NCBI RefSeq assembly: GCF_000025625.1
Contig: NC_013922.1
Coordinates: forward strand, 2,356,001-2,420,000
Length of the DNA: 64,000 nucleotides
Reading direction: 5' to 3'
Origin: Natrialba magadii ATCC 43099
GTDB lineage: Archaea > Halobacteriota > Halobacteria > Halobacteriales > Natrialbaceae
Numbering within the stretch: position 1 is the first letter of the stretch; each line of letters opens with the position of its first letter. The notes beneath the pieces were generated by a model. That model worked only from the letters and a program-made list of their open reading frames with translations, made no database searches and was not told where the DNA came from. This document shows, piece after piece, positions 17,070 through 23,578 of this stretch. Both the position numbers and the translations under genes were made by a program.

Positions 17070-18347
17070 ATGACCGCAGCCGAACCGACAACGGAACCCG
17101 AAGAAGAGGAAAGCGCAGTCGAAACAGCCCGTCGCCAACTCGAGCGCGCGGCCGCACACCTGGATGTCGACGAGGGCATCGTCGAGCGGCTTCGCCACCC
17201 GACCAGCGTCTATCGAGTCACGATCCCACTCGAGCGCGACGACGGCACCCGCGAGATGTTCACCGGCTATCGCGCCCATCACGACAGCGTTCGCGGCCCC
17301 TACAAGGGCGGACTGCGCTATCACCCTGCCGTCAACGAGGAGGAGTGTGTCGGCCTCTCGATGTGGATGACCTGGAAATGTGCCGTTATGGATCTCCCCT
17401 TTGGCGGCGCGAAAGGGGGTGTTGTCGTCGACCCGAAGGATCTCAGTACGGACGAAAAAGAGCGACTCACCCGTCGCTTCGCAGAGGAGCTCCGACCCGT
17501 TATCGGTCCGATGAAAGACATCCCGGCACCGGACATGGGAACCGACCCCGAGACGATGGCCTGGTTCATGGACGCCTATTCGATGCAGGAAGGCGAAACC
17601 ACGCCGGGCGTCGTGACCGGCAAACCGCCAGTTATCGGTGGCTCCCAGGGCCGTGAGAAGTCGCCTGGCCGGAGTGTCGGAATCATCACCGCGGAGGCGG
17701 TCGACTACTACGACTGGGAACTCGACGAGACAACTGTTGCCGTGCAAGGGTTCGGTAGCGTTGGCGCGAACGCCGCCCGCTACCTGGACGAACGCGGCGC
17801 TTCCATCGTCGCTGTTTCCGACATCGACGGTGCCATCTACGACCCTGATGGCCTCGACACGAACGACGTCGAAGACCACGACGAAACTCCAGGGATGGTC
17901 TCGGGCTACGATGCCCCACAGTCGCTTACCAACGAGGAACTGCTCGAACTCGACGTCGACGTGCTCATCCCCGCCGCAATCGGGAACGTGCTCACTGGCG
18001 ACAACGCACGCAACATCAACGCCGAGATGATCGTCGAGGGCGCGAACGGCCCGACGACCTCGACGGCCGATCAGATCTTCGAAAATCGGGATATTCCGGT
18101 CATTCCAGACATTCTGGCGAACGCGGGCGGCGTCACCGTCTCCTACTTCGAGTGGCTTCAGGACATCAACCGCCGCGCCTGGAGTCTGGAGCGCGTCCAC
18201 GAGGAACTCGAAACCGAGATGCTCCGCGCCTGGGGCGCGGTCTGTGAGGAGTACGAACGCAACGACGTGACCTGGCGCGACGCGGCGTACATCGTTGCAC
18301 TTCAGCGCATCGCCGAGGCACACGAGGCGCGCGGTCTCTGGCCGTAG
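17070..18347 (+). CDS. gdhA: Glutamate dehydrogenase (paralog 1)
   Basis: This hexameric-type glutamate dehydrogenase (425 residues) interconverts glutamate and 2-oxoglutarate plus ammonia. The substrate-binding [11 protein letters not shown], the catalytic Lys region [11 protein letters not shown], the Asp in PAPDMGT and the dinucleotide loop QGFGSVG are intact. The C-terminus has [15 protein letters not shown] short acidic N-terminal extension ([11 protein letters not shown]) precedes the core. A second glutamate dehydrogenase lies about 4 kb downstream. NAD versus NADP use cannot be decided by eye. Confidence 0.96.
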
Positions 18348-18454
18348 ACGCTCGCTGTCTCTGTATCCGCATCCGAATCCACATCTGACCGGACCCCTTT
18401 CTGGACCTGAAACAGATCTGAAGCGGAGCTATAGTAGCCACTGCAAGTCACTGC

Positions 18455-18487
18455 ACACCTGATCGCCAGATGACTCGGCGATCAGTG
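18455..18487. repeat. Strong stem-loop (9 bp plus bulged extension)
   Basis: CTGATCGCC pairs perfectly with GGCGATCAG around a 9-nt loop (AGATGACTC). With one bulged T the stem extends by four more pairs (ACAC/GTGT). It may be a shared terminator between two converging genes or part of the origin. Confidence 0.7.
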
Positions 18488-18537
18488 TGTAACTAGTTGC
18501 AGTTGTTACTATAAAACCCACACCCGAACCACAGACA

Positions 18538-18562
18538 CAGTCCCCCTATTCAGACTGTAAGT
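18538..18562 (-). other. ORB-like element E
   Basis: On the minus strand it reads ACAGTCTGAATAGGGGGACTG: a CTGAA core followed by a G-run, as in the other boxes around orc1/cdc6. Confidence 0.6.
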
Positions 18563-18634
18563 GTCGTTCCAGTTCGACCTGTGCTGGCACGTGACCGAAC
18601 TCGGCGCGACGATTTCTGTCGACTCGCTCGCGGG

Positions 18635-18660
18635 GACCCACCCCCGTCGTTCAGACTGTA
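18635..18660 (-). other. ORB-like element F
   Basis: On the minus strand it reads TACAGTCTGAACGACGGGGG: the same CTGAA core plus a G-string. It has the same orientation as element E. Confidence 0.6.
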
Positions 18661-18802
18661 CTCGAGTAGCACCCATACCGGCACTCGAGTCGCAACGCGA
18701 ACCCACGTACCGACGCAACGACGATCGGGAACAGTAACGAGTGTCAGCCGGCGTGGGGTGTCAGTCGGCGTGAACGGAGTTACGACGGGAACGAATCACT
18801 AG

Positions 18803-20095
18803 TTACGAAAACGACGACAGATCCGTCTCAACATCACGACCTCGTGATGAATCGCCACCGTTCGCAAGCTGGTCGTAGGAGGGAAGTTCCTCGAGTGAGG
18901 CGTCACGTCGGACCGCCTTGACGATGTGTTTTGGATCCGTCACCAGTCGGTGCAGAAGATAACTCCCTTGCGAGCGACCGCCACCGGTCTTTTCGGACTC
19001 GATCACGCCGAGGAATGCCTGTTCCTTGAGCTGCCGGTAGAGTCCGTTCTCCGTAATCGGATCGTTCGCGACCAGCTCACAGATACCGACGTAGCGCTGG
19101 TAGATTTCCCGCGTCTTGTACGTCTCGCGATCACCGGTGATGATGCGACTCGCGAGCGAGTACAGCGCGAGTTTGGCGTGCACCGTCGCACCGCTGGTCA
19201 GTTCCTCGATGCGGTTGATCTCGGCGACCTCTTGAGCCTGCTGGATATGGTCCTCGGAAACCGTTTCCGACCCGGTGCGGCGGGCCAACTCGCCAGCTTC
19301 CTTCAGAATCTCGATTGCCTTGCGCGCGTCTCCGTGTTTCTTCGCCGCGAGTGCAGCACAGAGTTCGATCGTCCCGTCCTCGAGTACGTCCGGCTGGAAG
19401 GCATCCTCGCGGTTGCGCATAATTTCGCGAAGCTGGGAGGCGTCATAGGGGTGGAAGAACAGTTCGCGGTGACCGAAGCTGCTGTCGATGCGCTCGTCTA
19501 AGGTTTCGCGGTACTGAACCTTGTTACTGATGCCGATCACGCCGATGTAGGCGTCCGTCTTGCGCGCTTCGCGAGCGCGAGAGAGTTGCATCAGGATGTT
19601 GCTGTTGTCGAGTTTGTCAATCTCGTCTAAAATGACGATGACAGCGTCGAAGAAGGACTCCAGAATACGCCAGATGTGCTGGTAGTACTCCATCGTGCCA
19701 ACACCGCGAAGCGGGATGTGGTCCTGGTAGCCGGTCTGTTCTTTGAGACTCAGGGCGAGCTGGCGGGTCGCTCGCGTCTCGGTATTCGCTTCGGAGCAGT
19801 CGACGTAGAGGACGCCACAGTCGATTTCGTTGCTGCTGGCGGCGTCCTGCGCTCGCGTGGCGACGTGGCGAGAGATGAGACTTTTCCCGGTCCCGGTTTT
19901 GCCGTAGATCATCACGTTGTTCGGTGGATCGCCGCGCGTGATCGCGCCGACTTCGGCGGCAACTGACTGAATCTCGTTGTCCCGACCGACGATCCGGTCT
20001 TCGTCGGGCACGTGTCCAACGTGCAGGAGTTCCTTCCGATTAAAAATCGGATCGTGAGATTGAAAGAGCGGGTCCCCACCGGCCGTATCAGCCAT
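18803..20095 (-). CDS. cdc6: Orc1/Cdc6 family replication initiator
   Basis: This AAA+ initiator (430 residues) binds origin recognition boxes and helps load the MCM helicase. The Walker A loop is IYGKTGTGKSLISRH (about residue 65), Walker B is VILDEIDKLDN, and sensor 1 is IGVIGISNKVQYRE. Sensor 2 lies in the GDARKAIEILKEAGE helix, and a C-terminal winged-helix DNA-binding domain follows (about residues 330-400). A TTTTATAA promoter element lies about 35 nt before the ATG. ORB-like boxes are found on both sides of the gene, so this is an origin-linked copy. Confidence 0.96.
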   Translation of the reverse strand: MADTAGGDPLFQSHDPIFNRKELLHVGHVPDEDRIVGRDNEIQSVAAEVGAITRGDPPNNVMIYGKTGTGKSLISRHVATRAQDAASSNEIDCGVLYVDCSEANTETRATRQLALSLKEQTGYQDHIPLRGVGTMEYYQHIWRILESFFDAVIVILDEIDKLDNSNILMQLSRAREARKTDAYIGVIGISNKVQYRETLDERIDSSFGHRELFFHPYDASQLREIMRNREDAFQPDVLEDGTIELCAALAAKKHGDARKAIEILKEAGELARRTGSETVSEDHIQQAQEVAEINRIEELTSGATVHAKLALYSLASRIITGDRETYKTREIYQRYVGICELVANDPITENGLYRQLKEQAFLGVIESEKTGGGRSQGSYLLHRLVTDPKHIVKAVRRDASLEELPSYDQLANGGDSSRGRDVETDLSSFS

Positions 20096-20166
20096 GCTTC
20101 CATTCTGGGAGACAGGCGTTATAAAACCACGGGAAAGAATTCAGACTGATAACGACCCGGAGACCG

Positions 20167-20211
20167 TTCCAATTCGGACGTAATTCCGCTGTAAGCGGCA
20201 GTCCGTTGGAA
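20167..20211. repeat. Nested inverted repeat (cruciform) upstream of orc1/cdc6
   Basis: The outer arms TTCCAA and CGGAC (separated by two bases) pair with GTCCG-TTGGAA. An inner hairpin CCGCT-GTA-AGCGG sits inside. It lies between the orc1/cdc6 promoter and ORB-like element A. Confidence 0.7.
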
Positions 20212-20240
20212 TTCGTGTGATCAACGCCCGATCGGACAGG

Positions 20241-20263
20241 CCCACCCCCGATTCAGAGTGAAA
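20241..20263 (-). other. ORB-like element A
   Basis: On the minus strand it reads TTTCACTCTGAATCGGGGG followed by TGGG. It is one of the two best matches (with B) to the shared pattern TTTCACTYTGAA-N3-GGGG. Confidence 0.75.
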
Positions 20264-20402
20264 GTGCGTGAAAGACGAGGGTGAGAAAAGAGCTGTGTCG
20301 GTACCGAGGTCCCGACAAAATGTAGGCGGGGCTGGGGTTCTGTCTCAGGTCTGTAGTTCTGTATCGTATTCTCCATCTCTGTTTCGTCTCGATAGAGTAA
20401 CT

Positions 20403-20527
20403 AGTATAGAAATAGTCTATAAACAGTCTAGAAGCAGTCTAGAAGCAGTCTATAAACAGTCTAGAAGCAGTCTAGAAGCAGTCTATAAACAGTCTATAAA
20501 AATAGTATAGAAAACTAGTCTAGAAAG
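20403..20527. repeat. AT-rich 11-bp tandem array (candidate DNA-unwinding element)
   Basis: Eight contiguous 11-bp units (20414-20501) alternate between AGTCTATAAAC and AGTCTAGAAGC in the order T-G-G-T-G-G-T-T, where T is the TATAAAC type and G the TAGAAGC type. Degenerate units extend the array on both sides. The 11-bp period is close to one helical turn. Confidence 0.9.
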
Positions 20528-20737
20528 AGTTCTAGCTATAGTTTGAATGTTATGGTGGCGGCATGTATTTCTGGGAAGAGGGGAAGAAAAACCAGGTCAC
20601 TACTACCGCTGGACACCCCTCTCTGACCTCGTTGGACCTCAGAAAGGCCGTTGCTCTCACACTTTGTACTGATTCTCGGTTTTCCGCGGACCGTTTCCCG
20701 CCTCCAGCGTCTCTCCCCCACCCCACACCACTGGGCA

Positions 20738-20762
20738 GATACACTCTGAACAAGGGGGGTCC
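20738..20762 (+). other. ORB-like element D
   Basis: It reads ATACACTCTGAACAAGGGGG followed by GTCC: CACTCTGAA core plus G-run. Confidence 0.7.
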
Positions 20763-20881
20763 CTGGGTGTCTCAACCCCACTCAAACCGACTTCCCACTT
20801 GTAGCCACTCTACAGCCTGCTACGGGGAGTTTCAAACACATCCACTACGTTCCTGGAGCAATCTGTGTGGAACCCACACAG

Positions 20882-20906
20882 CACCACCCCGTATTCAGAG
20901 TGAAAA
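20882..20906 (-). other. ORB-like element B
   Basis: On the minus strand it reads TTTTCACTCTGAATACGGGG followed by TGGTG. It nearly matches element A. Confidence 0.75.
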
Positions 20907-20940
20907 TCTCGTTCCTGTTTTCCGCGTCTATGCATGTCAC

Positions 20941-20964
20941 TTTTCACTTTGAACGAGGGGTGTC
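20941..20964 (+). other. ORB-like element C
   Basis: It reads TTTTCACTTTGAACGAGGGG followed by TGTC. It has opposite orientation to element B, 35 nt away. Confidence 0.75.
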
Positions 20965-21087
20965 TACCTTCGTCCTGGACCATCGACTTTCGGTGGTGGC
21001 GTGACGCCAGTTTCTGCCGAATCGTTTCCAGTCCGACCTCGTGGCCAGTCCCATACCTTGACATAATCGGTACGCACACAGGTGGAT

Positions 21088-22185
21088 ATGGTACCAATGG
21101 TACGACGCAGTATTCTCTTCACTCCCGGTGATCAACCGGAAATGCTCCGCAAAGCACCCGATGCAGGTGCCGACACTATCGTCTTCGATCTCGAAGACGC
21201 GGTCGCACCAACCGAAAAAGAGTCTGCCCGGGAAACGGTTCGAGCGGTTCTAACCGATCCAGCATTCGATCCTGAATGCGAGGTCTGTGTACGGGTAAAC
21301 GCTCCCGTCGATGAACTGACGGCCGACCTCGAAGCCATCGTTGGGGATCTCGACACAGACATCGATACAGCTACAGACGCCGATACAGCCACAGACACCG
21401 ATACAGCTACAGACGCCGATACAGCCACAGACACCGATACAGCTACAGACGCCGATACAGCCACAGACACCGATACAGCCACAGACGCCGATACCGACAC
21501 GCACACCGGCACAGGCACCGATACAGCCACAGCCGCCGATACAGCCACAGACACCCACTCCGGCACAGACACCACCAACCCACCGACCGACCTCCGTCTC
21601 GATAGCGTTATGCTCCCCAAGGCCGACTCCGCCGACGACATCCGCACGCTCGCCGCGGAACTCGAGTCCCACGGCCTCGACCTTCCTATCCTGGCACTGA
21701 TCGAAAACGCCCAGGGCGTCCTCGAAGCGCCGGGAATCGCGGCCGTCCCCGAAACTGCCGCCCTCCTGTTCGGTGCCGAGGACCTCTCGGCCGATCTCGG
21801 TGCGACACGAACCGACGAGGGCACGGAAGTACTCTATGCACGTGAACGAGTCGTCGTCGCAGCCGCTGCACACGACTGCCAGGCGATCGATACAGTCTTC
21901 ACCGATTTCGGCGACGAGGACGGACTCATCGAGGAAACCGAGTTCGCGATTCAACTCGGCTACGACGGCAAGCTGGCGATCCACCCCGCGCAGGTCGAGC
22001 CGATCAACGAGGCGTTCACGCCGACAGCAGAGGCACTCGAGTGGGCCACGGCGGTACTCGAGGCCAAACAGGAGGCGGACGCCGAGGGGCGAGGCGTCTT
22101 CGAGGTCGACGGTGAGATGATCGATGCGCCATTGATCGCGCAGGCAGAGCGGATTCGTGAACGAGCGGACGCGGCTGACTCCTGA
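21088..22185 (+). CDS. HpcH/HpaI-CitE family CoA-ester lyase with repeat insertion
   Basis: This TIM-barrel lyase of the citrate-lyase-beta/malyl-CoA-lyase family has RRSILFTPGDQPEML, VFDLEDAVAP, the metal-binding Glu in ALIENAQGV, and FGAEDLSADLG. The C-terminal GYDGKLAIHPAQV is also present. Haloarchaeal members act on malyl- or beta-methylmalyl-CoA (lyase or thioesterase). Between the VRVNAPVDELTADLEAI strand and LDSVMLPKAD, about 75 residues (roughly 88-163) of D-T-A-T-D repeat are inserted in a surface loop. ATG 21088 fits a TATA-like element near 21060; ATG 21097 is possible. It lies between the origin and the second glutamate dehydrogenase. Confidence 0.93.
   Translation: MVPMVRRSILFTPGDQPEMLRKAPDAGADTIVFDLEDAVAPTEKESARETVRAVLTDPAFDPECEVCVRVNAPVDELTADLEAIVGDLDTDIDTATDADTATDTDTATDADTATDTDTATDADTATDTDTATDADTDTHTGTGTDTATAADTATDTHSGTDTTNPPTDLRLDSVMLPKADSADDIRTLAAELESHGLDLPILALIENAQGVLEAPGIAAVPETAALLFGAEDLSADLGATRTDEGTEVLYARERVVVAAAAHDCQAIDTVFTDFGDEDGLIEETEFAIQLGYDGKLAIHPAQVEPINEAFTPTAEALEWATAVLEAKQEADAEGRGVFEVDGEMIDAPLIAQAERIRERADAADS
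21351..21577. repeat. In-frame 36-bp tandem repeat inside the CoA-ester lyase gene
   Basis: Three exact 36-bp copies (21364-21399, 21400-21435, 21436-21471) are flanked by degenerate 18-bp half units (GATACAGCYACAGACRCC). They encode DTATDADTATDT repeats. The length is a multiple of three, so the reading frame is kept. Confidence 0.92.
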
Positions 22186-22321
22186 CCCCTGACCCCTGAC
22201 TCGTCTCGCAGGCCTGAGACTTGCAAGAGATATTAAGACCACTATAATCCTTATATTGTGTTTTACTTACTATGGATGATGTTCGTCACGCTTATTTTCG
22301 GTTCTGCGGAATAGCCGTCTA

Positions 22322-23578
22322 ATGGCAGCAGACACGAATCCGTTCGAGAGTCTGCAGTCGCAAATCGACGATGCGGCGGCACACCTCGATATCGGCGACG
22401 GCGTGATCGAGCGGCTCAAGCACCCTGAGCGCGTGCTTGAGACGAACCTCACGGTCGAACTCGACAACGGCGACCTCGAACGGTTCAAAGCCTTTCGCTC
22501 GCAGTTCAACGGCGACCGCGGGCCATACAAGGGAGGTATCCGCTATCACCCAGCGGTCTCTCGGGACGAGGTCAAGGCACTCTCGGGCTGGATGGTTTAT
22601 AAGTGTGCAACGGTCGGCATTCCCTACGGTGGCGGGAAGGGGGGAATCGTCGTCGACCCAACCGAGTACTCCGAGAGCGAACTCGAACGTCTCACCCGCG
22701 CGTTCGCGACCGAACTGCGCCCGCTGATCGGTGTCGATCGAGACATTCCTGCACCTGACGTCAACACCGGCCAGCGGGAGATGAACTGGATCAAAGACAC
22801 CTACGAAACGCTCGAGAATACCACCGAACCGGGCGTCATCACGGGCAAGAATATTACCAGTGGCGGCAGCAAGGGTCGCGTCGAGGCAACCGGCCGTTCG
22901 ACCGTTCTCGCCGCCCGTGAAGCGTTCGATTACCTTGCGAAGGATCTCGGGGGGGCAACCGTCGCCGTGCAGGGGTACGGCAACGCCGGCTGGATCGCGG
23001 CCAAACTCATCGACGAGATGGGTGCCACTGTCGTCGCCGCGAGCGACTCGAGTGGCGGTATCTACAATCCGGATGGCTTCGACCCGGTCGCTGCGAAAAA
23101 ACACAAGAACGAGACCGGAAGTATCGTCGGCTACGAGGAGAGTGAGGAGGAAATCACGAACGAAGACGTGCTTACGATGGACGTCGATCTGCTCATTCCC
23201 GCCGCACTGGAGAACGCAATCGACGGAGAACTCGCCGAGGAGGTCTCTGCTGACGTCATTTCGGAGGCCGCGAACGGACCGCTGACGCCCGAAGCCGACG
23301 CGGTGATGGAGGAGAAGGATGTCTTCGTGATTCCGGATATTCTCGCGAACGCGGGTGGCGTCACCGTTTCCTACTTCGAGTGGATCCAGAATCGCCAGCG
23401 CTTTGCCTGGTCAGAAGAGCGTGTGAACGACGAACTCGAGACGATCATCGTCGACGCGTTCGACGCACTCGTCGAAACGTACGAGGAACACGATCTGAAT
23501 AACCCACGGACTGCCGCGTACGTTGTTGCGTTGCAACGCGTTGCTGACGCGTACAACGAAGCCGGCACGTTCCCATAA
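22322..23578 (+). CDS. gdhA: Glutamate dehydrogenase (paralog 2)
   Basis: The second glutamate dehydrogenase (418 residues) has all key segments: [22 protein letters not shown] with the catalytic Lys, PAPDVNT, the nucleotide loop QGYGNAG and the C-terminal [14 protein letters not shown]. It is clearly diverged from paralog 1; for example the metal-free loop is PYGGGKGG, not PFGGAKGG. One copy may be NAD-linked and catabolic, the other NADP-linked. A TATA-like CTTATTTTC element lies about 30 nt before the ATG. Confidence 0.96.

Follow-up and report, generated by a model that had tools for sequence, protein, structure and literature searches.

Replication origins of haloarchaea, including those of Natrialba magadii, have been described as gaps next to an orc/cdc6 gene that hold inverted ORBs with a G-string and an AT-rich stretch, and in the account of Wu et al. 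2012 (PMC3528665) ORBs occasionally occupy both gaps that flank the gene. The same account gives five predicted origins for the seven chromosomal orc genes of N. magadii. In Haloarcula hispanica, the origin at oriC2-cdc6E is located upstream of its initiator gene and is accompanied by extra ORBs downstream, where oriC2D comprises 11 ORBs in 722 bp and was shown to have a negative effect (PMC3936714). Furthermore, CTAG clusters upstream of orc1/cdc6, linked to an orphan methylase, have been published for haloarchaea (PMC4752239, in which the running text prints CATG and the figure legend CTAG), and oriC1 of N. magadii, with its orc gene at C1:1962657-1964132, is also orc-linked (PMC3403918). 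For oriC5/oriC6 of Natrinema sp. J7, five ORBs upstream and one downstream are reported (PMC5350488).

We analyzed a 64-kb stretch of the N. magadii genome (C1:2356001-2420000; hereafter the window, to which all positions given without a contig refer). The genome comprises 4,443,643 bases in four contigs (C1, 3,751,858; C2, 378,348; C3, 254,950). The orc1/cdc6 locus of the window shows the orc/cdc6 gap, inverted G-string ORBs, AT-rich stretch and boxes in both flanking gaps, and does not differ in principle from the origins that Wu et al. describe. Like oriC2-cdc6E, the locus has extra boxes downstream of the initiator gene, but only two in 455 bp. A CTAG cluster lies in the gap upstream of orc, as in the published haloarchaeal clusters, with the difference that much of the N. 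magadii cluster is made up by a tandem array and that its placement between inverted boxes could be measured over 38 loci. The locus is distinct from oriC1, which all haloarchaea share as a conserved origin: the oriC1 Orc is only 35% identical to the window Orc, and none of the window boxes is found there at up to one mismatch. As an origin, the locus is of a kind already described, an ordinary haloarchaeal one, and it very probably belongs to the five that earlier work predicted on the chromosome of this strain.

The original prediction, made from the sequence, had placed six ORB-like boxes around the gene. Scanning the window and the whole genome for CCCCNNNTTCARASTGW with up to one mismatch recovered all six as the only matches in the window, whereas 100 dinucleotide shuffles of the window yielded a mean of 0.09 matches and a maximum of 1. 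Two boxes are located in the downstream gap (18348-18802), at 18542-18558 (exact) and 18643-18659 (one mismatch), both on the plus strand and both within blocks that are conserved when the downstream gaps from four Natrialba are aligned. The other four are located in the upstream gap (20096-21081), about 160-860 bp from the orc start: a proximal box at 20245-20261 (+), its inverted partner across the AT-rich stretch at 20741-20757 (-), and an outer pair at 20887-20903 (+) and 20944-20960 (-). The predicted use of both strands holds for the upstream gap, which has two boxes per strand including inverted pairs, but not downstream, where both boxes share one strand. Genome-wide, five of the six exact matches and six of the 15 matches with up to one mismatch were at the orc locus, while a reversed control pattern gave four matches, and no box at up to one mismatch was present at any of the other 11 orc-match loci of the genome. 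Because the pattern was derived from these same boxes, the independent evidence consists of their genome-wide specificity and their conservation in relatives. The sole exact box elsewhere is located at C1:3363479-3363495, with one-mismatch matches at 3379067 and 3391995; none of the orc matches of the genome is near it.

The initiator gene (18803-20095, minus strand) is intact, as had been predicted, and encodes 430 amino acids with Pfam matches to AAA, Cdc6_lid and the winged-helix Cdc6_C and a match to TIGR02928. The protein is longer than the 300 amino acids, and contains both the AAA+ and winged-helix domains, looked for in an origin-associated initiator; its best solved structural relatives are the archaeal Orc1 structures 2v1u and 2qby. 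Between the inverted boxes, a nearest-neighbour stability scan identified 20391-20540 as the 150-bp segment of lowest stability in the window, a probable unwinding element that is AT-rich and flanked by ORBs. In the surrounding 400 kb, this segment ranked only second in instability at 150 bp and the array within it only sixth at 100 bp, which counts against an origin; by AT content over 300 bp, the region also ranked sixth. The gap directly adjoining orc/cdc6 holds two or more inverted ORB-like repeats bearing a G-string, as the criteria of Wu et al. 2012 (PMC3528665) ask of an origin, and this agreement supports the origin reading. We consider it highly likely, judging from sequence features, that the locus is a chromosomal origin of replication with its own Orc1/Cdc6 as the initiator. 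The predicted origin is supported by the conservation of the boxes, their inverted layout, the position of the least stable window DNA between inverted boxes and the intact cognate initiator.

In such an origin, Orc1/Cdc6 would bind the G-tailed boxes that face each other in inverted orientation at 20245 and 20741 as well as the outer pair at 20887/20944, the bound protein would open the AT-rich, CTAG-dense stretch at 20391-20540, and the opened stretch would allow MCM loading. Less certainly, and by analogy with oriC2D of Haloarcula hispanica, the downstream boxes may bind Orc without forming an origin and serve to titrate or control it on a small scale.

The comparison with relatives covered 125 genomes of the family. 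An orc match at E <= 1e-120 was present in 71 of them, in 11 cases as paralogues only (49-56%), and an orthologue at 84-100% identity was found in 60, one of which (G043) was partial. Of 56 named loci, 38 at at least 73% identity were combined with the window into 39 compared loci, and 18 at 46-55% identity (L089-L106) were set apart as a second Orc family. An inverted upstream box pair was present at 38 of the 39 orthologous loci, the exception being L107, which has no upstream box; 36 carried one to three boxes within 600 bp downstream of orc, and 35 had boxes on both sides, although many of the loci come from close relatives and the counts are not independent. At three loci (L070, L076 and L086) a downstream box was located 1.4-2.6 kb away and none within 600 bp. 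The original prediction regarded it as unusual that boxes flank the initiator gene on either side, a view that this frequency, together with the earlier description in other haloarchaea (PMC3528665), overturns: they are a family trait rather than an oddity. Among the 39 loci, gdhA was found upstream in 30, citE upstream in 20 and gdhB downstream in 24, and in much of Natrialbaceae the origin is passed on jointly with gdhA and gdhB. The large, very conserved and easily compared family makes this origin a useful one.

Several individual relatives deserve mention. In Natronorubrum bangense (L064, L066) the origin is found both on the chromosome and on an 828-kb plasmid with boxes at the same places, perhaps by segmental duplication. 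The Natrialba asiatica orthologue (L057 5001-6365) measures 1365 bp compared to 1290, and of the G043 orthologue residues 1-286 alone match in one piece, which in both cases points to inserted sequence or an interruption towards the C-terminus. Natrinema gari (L080) resembles Natrinema sp. J7 oriC5/oriC6 as reported in PMC5350488, also with five boxes upstream and one downstream and with GC contents of 58.5% upstream and 67.1% downstream versus 59.4% and 66.7%; the lengths do not match exactly, and the two are not equated, the likeness serving as a lead only. A literature search for a marker-frequency paper on Natrinema replication origins found none.

The orc promoter contains a further conserved element, which the original prediction had not noted, any more than the one-base box difference and the 85-bp palindrome described below. 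A half-box, ATCAGTCTG, which is half of the full box with the G-run absent, is located at 20142-20150 on the minus strand, 55 bases before the orc start and ahead of a TATA-like block, TTTTATAA (20119-20126, minus strand), that forms a conserved block at about -30. Of 36 Natrialbaceae loci, all have the half-box between -62 and -41 and 33 have it at exactly -55, and a looser form was present within 90 bases of the orc start at 38 of the 39 loci. From this fixed position we infer, with less certainty, that Orc1/Cdc6 may regulate its own promoter through the half-box; in the text available from PMC3936714, autoregulation is mentioned for bacterial DnaA only. The fixed half-box, the identical orientation of all 47 downstream boxes counted, which alone form no inverted pair, and the existence of archaeal Orc paralogues that regulate transcription (Orc1-2, PMC9738581) would also fit a locus at which Orc acts purely as a transcription regulator, the boxes being operators or titration sites and no origin being present. 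The four upstream boxes, however, lie about 160-860 bp away from the gene start, include pairs in inverted orientation and stand on either side of the window's least stable DNA, and we consider a purely regulatory site quite improbable. Autoregulation as part of an Orc-driven origin can be addressed directly at this locus by way of the fixed half-box.

We also examined the 11-bp tandem array that had been noted within the AT-rich stretch. The array is real: Tandem Repeats Finder (TRF) reported it at 20403-20535 with a period of 11 bp, 11.6 copies and 78% matches, and within it a higher-order 33-bp repeat (20403-20496, 2.8 copies, 95%), which suggests recent duplication. The array is specific to N. 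magadii. A scan of 1.5 kb upstream (0.6 kb in L084) detected no comparable 11-bp array at any of the other 38 loci; the 11-bp unit present in 2.8 copies at L052 is GC-rich and unrelated, and at L055, L057 and L086 there is faint 11-bp autocorrelation (0.35-0.40 versus 0.68 in the window) and no array. The helical repeat of DNA is 10.5 bp and differs from the 11 bp of the array. A conserved helical-phase device is ruled out, as the N. magadii locus alone among the 39 has such an array, and the helical period that the original prediction singled out as unusual is not common to the other loci, which keep CTAG and AT-richness instead. The array arose recently and locally, by tandem expansion of sequence in an unwinding region whose richness in CTAG is conserved.

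This region is marked by a cluster of eight CTAG sites within 135 bp (20401-20535) upstream of orc1/cdc6, out of 32 in the window, where 107 would be expected from shuffles. We scored CTAG in the widest interval between adjacent inverted boxes at 38 of the 39 loci, L107 being omitted because it has no pair. Density was 6.3 per kb between the inverted boxes compared to 0.29 outside, and at least one CTAG was present in 33 of the 38 intervals and none in five, a count that is lowered by the scoring rule having picked an outer interval without CTAG at L087. Relative to the base composition of the intervals themselves, only 123 sites were observed where 73 were expected, which counts against an origin, and relative to AT-matched windows the excess was 6.9-fold, the next highest of the 16 palindromic tetramers reaching 1.4. 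Given the avoidance of CTAG elsewhere and its excess over both own-composition and AT-matched expectations, the signal is partly missing avoidance and partly a true excess. Nine CTAG sites also occur within about 345 bp beside the reported oriC1 point of the N. magadii genome (L010).

A candidate methylase is encoded in the same genome, in which full-length matches to PF01555 occur at two chromosomal loci, the remaining matches being partial or on C4. The protein at C1:48390-49478 was found in 121 of the 125 family genomes, the four genomes without it being 53-70% complete, and N4-cytosine methylases are among its best phage matches; the second locus is represented in 6 of 125. The former fits a putative near-universal orphan CTAG methylase, a specificity suggested by its distribution. 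Such an enzyme might mark the array and gate re-initiation through the methylated or hemimethylated state of the array, a role comparable to that of Dam at E. coli oriC. We know of no SeqA-like reader. CTAG being the only enriched palindromic tetramer, the density of the cluster, the near-universal methylase and the published link between the two in haloarchaea (PMC4752239) favor methylation gating, but five of the 38 loci have no CTAG in the scored interval and the N. magadii enzyme is only a putative CTAG methylase. Furthermore, later work questions the role of CTAG methylation or leaves it open: in Haloferax volcanii CTAG is dense at a single origin and growth is not impaired when the methylase is lost (PMC5867850), and PMC6471742 calls the role open. 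We therefore regard a methylation-gated origin as unlikely, although the locus permits a direct test of CTAG methylation at archaeal origins.

The second Orc family (46-55% identity) uses nearly the same G-tailed box, also in inverted pairs. To compare the two, we scanned without any constraint on the two letters that precede the core. Before CAG, 221 of 222 boxes of the window's own family, found across all 39 loci, have T (206) or G (15), whereas in the second family, with boxes at 16 of 18 loci, the base before CAG/AAG was C in 88 of 93; second-family boxes also allow A as the next base, unlike those of the own family, and are otherwise nearly identical. Five genomes hold both families, and in these C was found in none of 31 hits at own-family loci, one of which is a stray hit, and in all 50 hits at six second-family loci. 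Since the two Orc families are two clades, this difference may reflect a single evolutionary change. In two of the five genomes (G046 and G100) the second-family orc has an in-frame stop, and at the corresponding loci (L136 and L141; G046:C34 and G100:C3) the stop-bearing gene lies beside intact-looking box arrays, possibly as decaying origins. A more far-reaching reading would hold both that the array arose by recent amplification of CTAG methylation sites inside the unwinding element, so that methylation state in addition to AT-richness gates melting and re-initiation, and that one base, T/G versus C, lets the two initiator families tell their boxes apart; taken as a whole it is speculative and more probably wrong than right by a wide measure. 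If true, T/G versus C before the CAG/AAG core would be a minimal specificity switch in archaeal origin recognition, and the locus allows one-base discrimination between initiator families sharing a cell to be tested directly. Of the features of this origin, the array with its CTAG sites, the half-box at its fixed position and the single-base difference between the families are worth following.

Cumulative GC skew, proposed earlier as a check around 20.4 kb, showed no minimum, bend or inflection over 400 kb around the locus. GC skew is often weak in haloarchaea, and the missing inflection is therefore neutral to slightly negative for an origin. For AT skew, calculations over 20-100 kb gave opposite signs on the two sides of the locus (at 100 kb, -0.014 to the left and +0.021 to the right), but no such change was seen over 190 kb, and we draw no inference from it. 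The lack of a GC-skew inflection would suit an origin that is built and conserved, silent in normal growth and used only if oriC1 or others fail. Some predicted haloarchaeal origins lack ARS activity or replication peaks (PMC3528665, PMC4595724), which also weighs against the origin reading: ARS activity was absent in two of seven predicted H. hispanica origins (PMC3528665), and dormant orc-associated origins were shown in Haloferax mediterranei (PMC4595724). The latter are proposed to be recently acquired, however, whereas the N. magadii locus has long been conserved with its gene neighbourhood, and we consider dormancy possible but doubtful.

The original prediction further proposed a cruciform at 20167-20211. 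As DNA, this segment folds better than any of 200 shuffles (-12 versus -6.3 +/- 1.8 kcal/mol, z -3.2), but its arms are weak: the outer arms match exactly over 6 bases only, a scan for 11-base arms with up to one mismatch found nothing there, and no such repeat was seen by eye in the aligned relatives. The weak inverted repeat is probably not functional, and relatives lend no support to it as a working part of the origin. An Rfam scan of 17500-22500 gave one match, inside gdhB and with a sub-gathering score. The CitE-like gene beside the origin contains an in-frame array of an 18-bp repeat (21354-21573, 12.6 copies) that gives rise to an Asp/Thr/Ala-rich stretch in the enzyme, and in most relatives this gene aligns only in two pieces. 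Finally, the downstream gap harbors an 85-bp palindromic element (18429-18513) that is absent from the matching place in three other Natrialba and for which a literature search found no published description. Its DNA fold has a z of -6.1, and it occurs in at least 40 places in the genome at 92-100% identity, the window copy included (40 of 117 candidates were scored). The element looks like a MITE or REP-like element and is an insertion in the downstream gap rather than a part of the origin.
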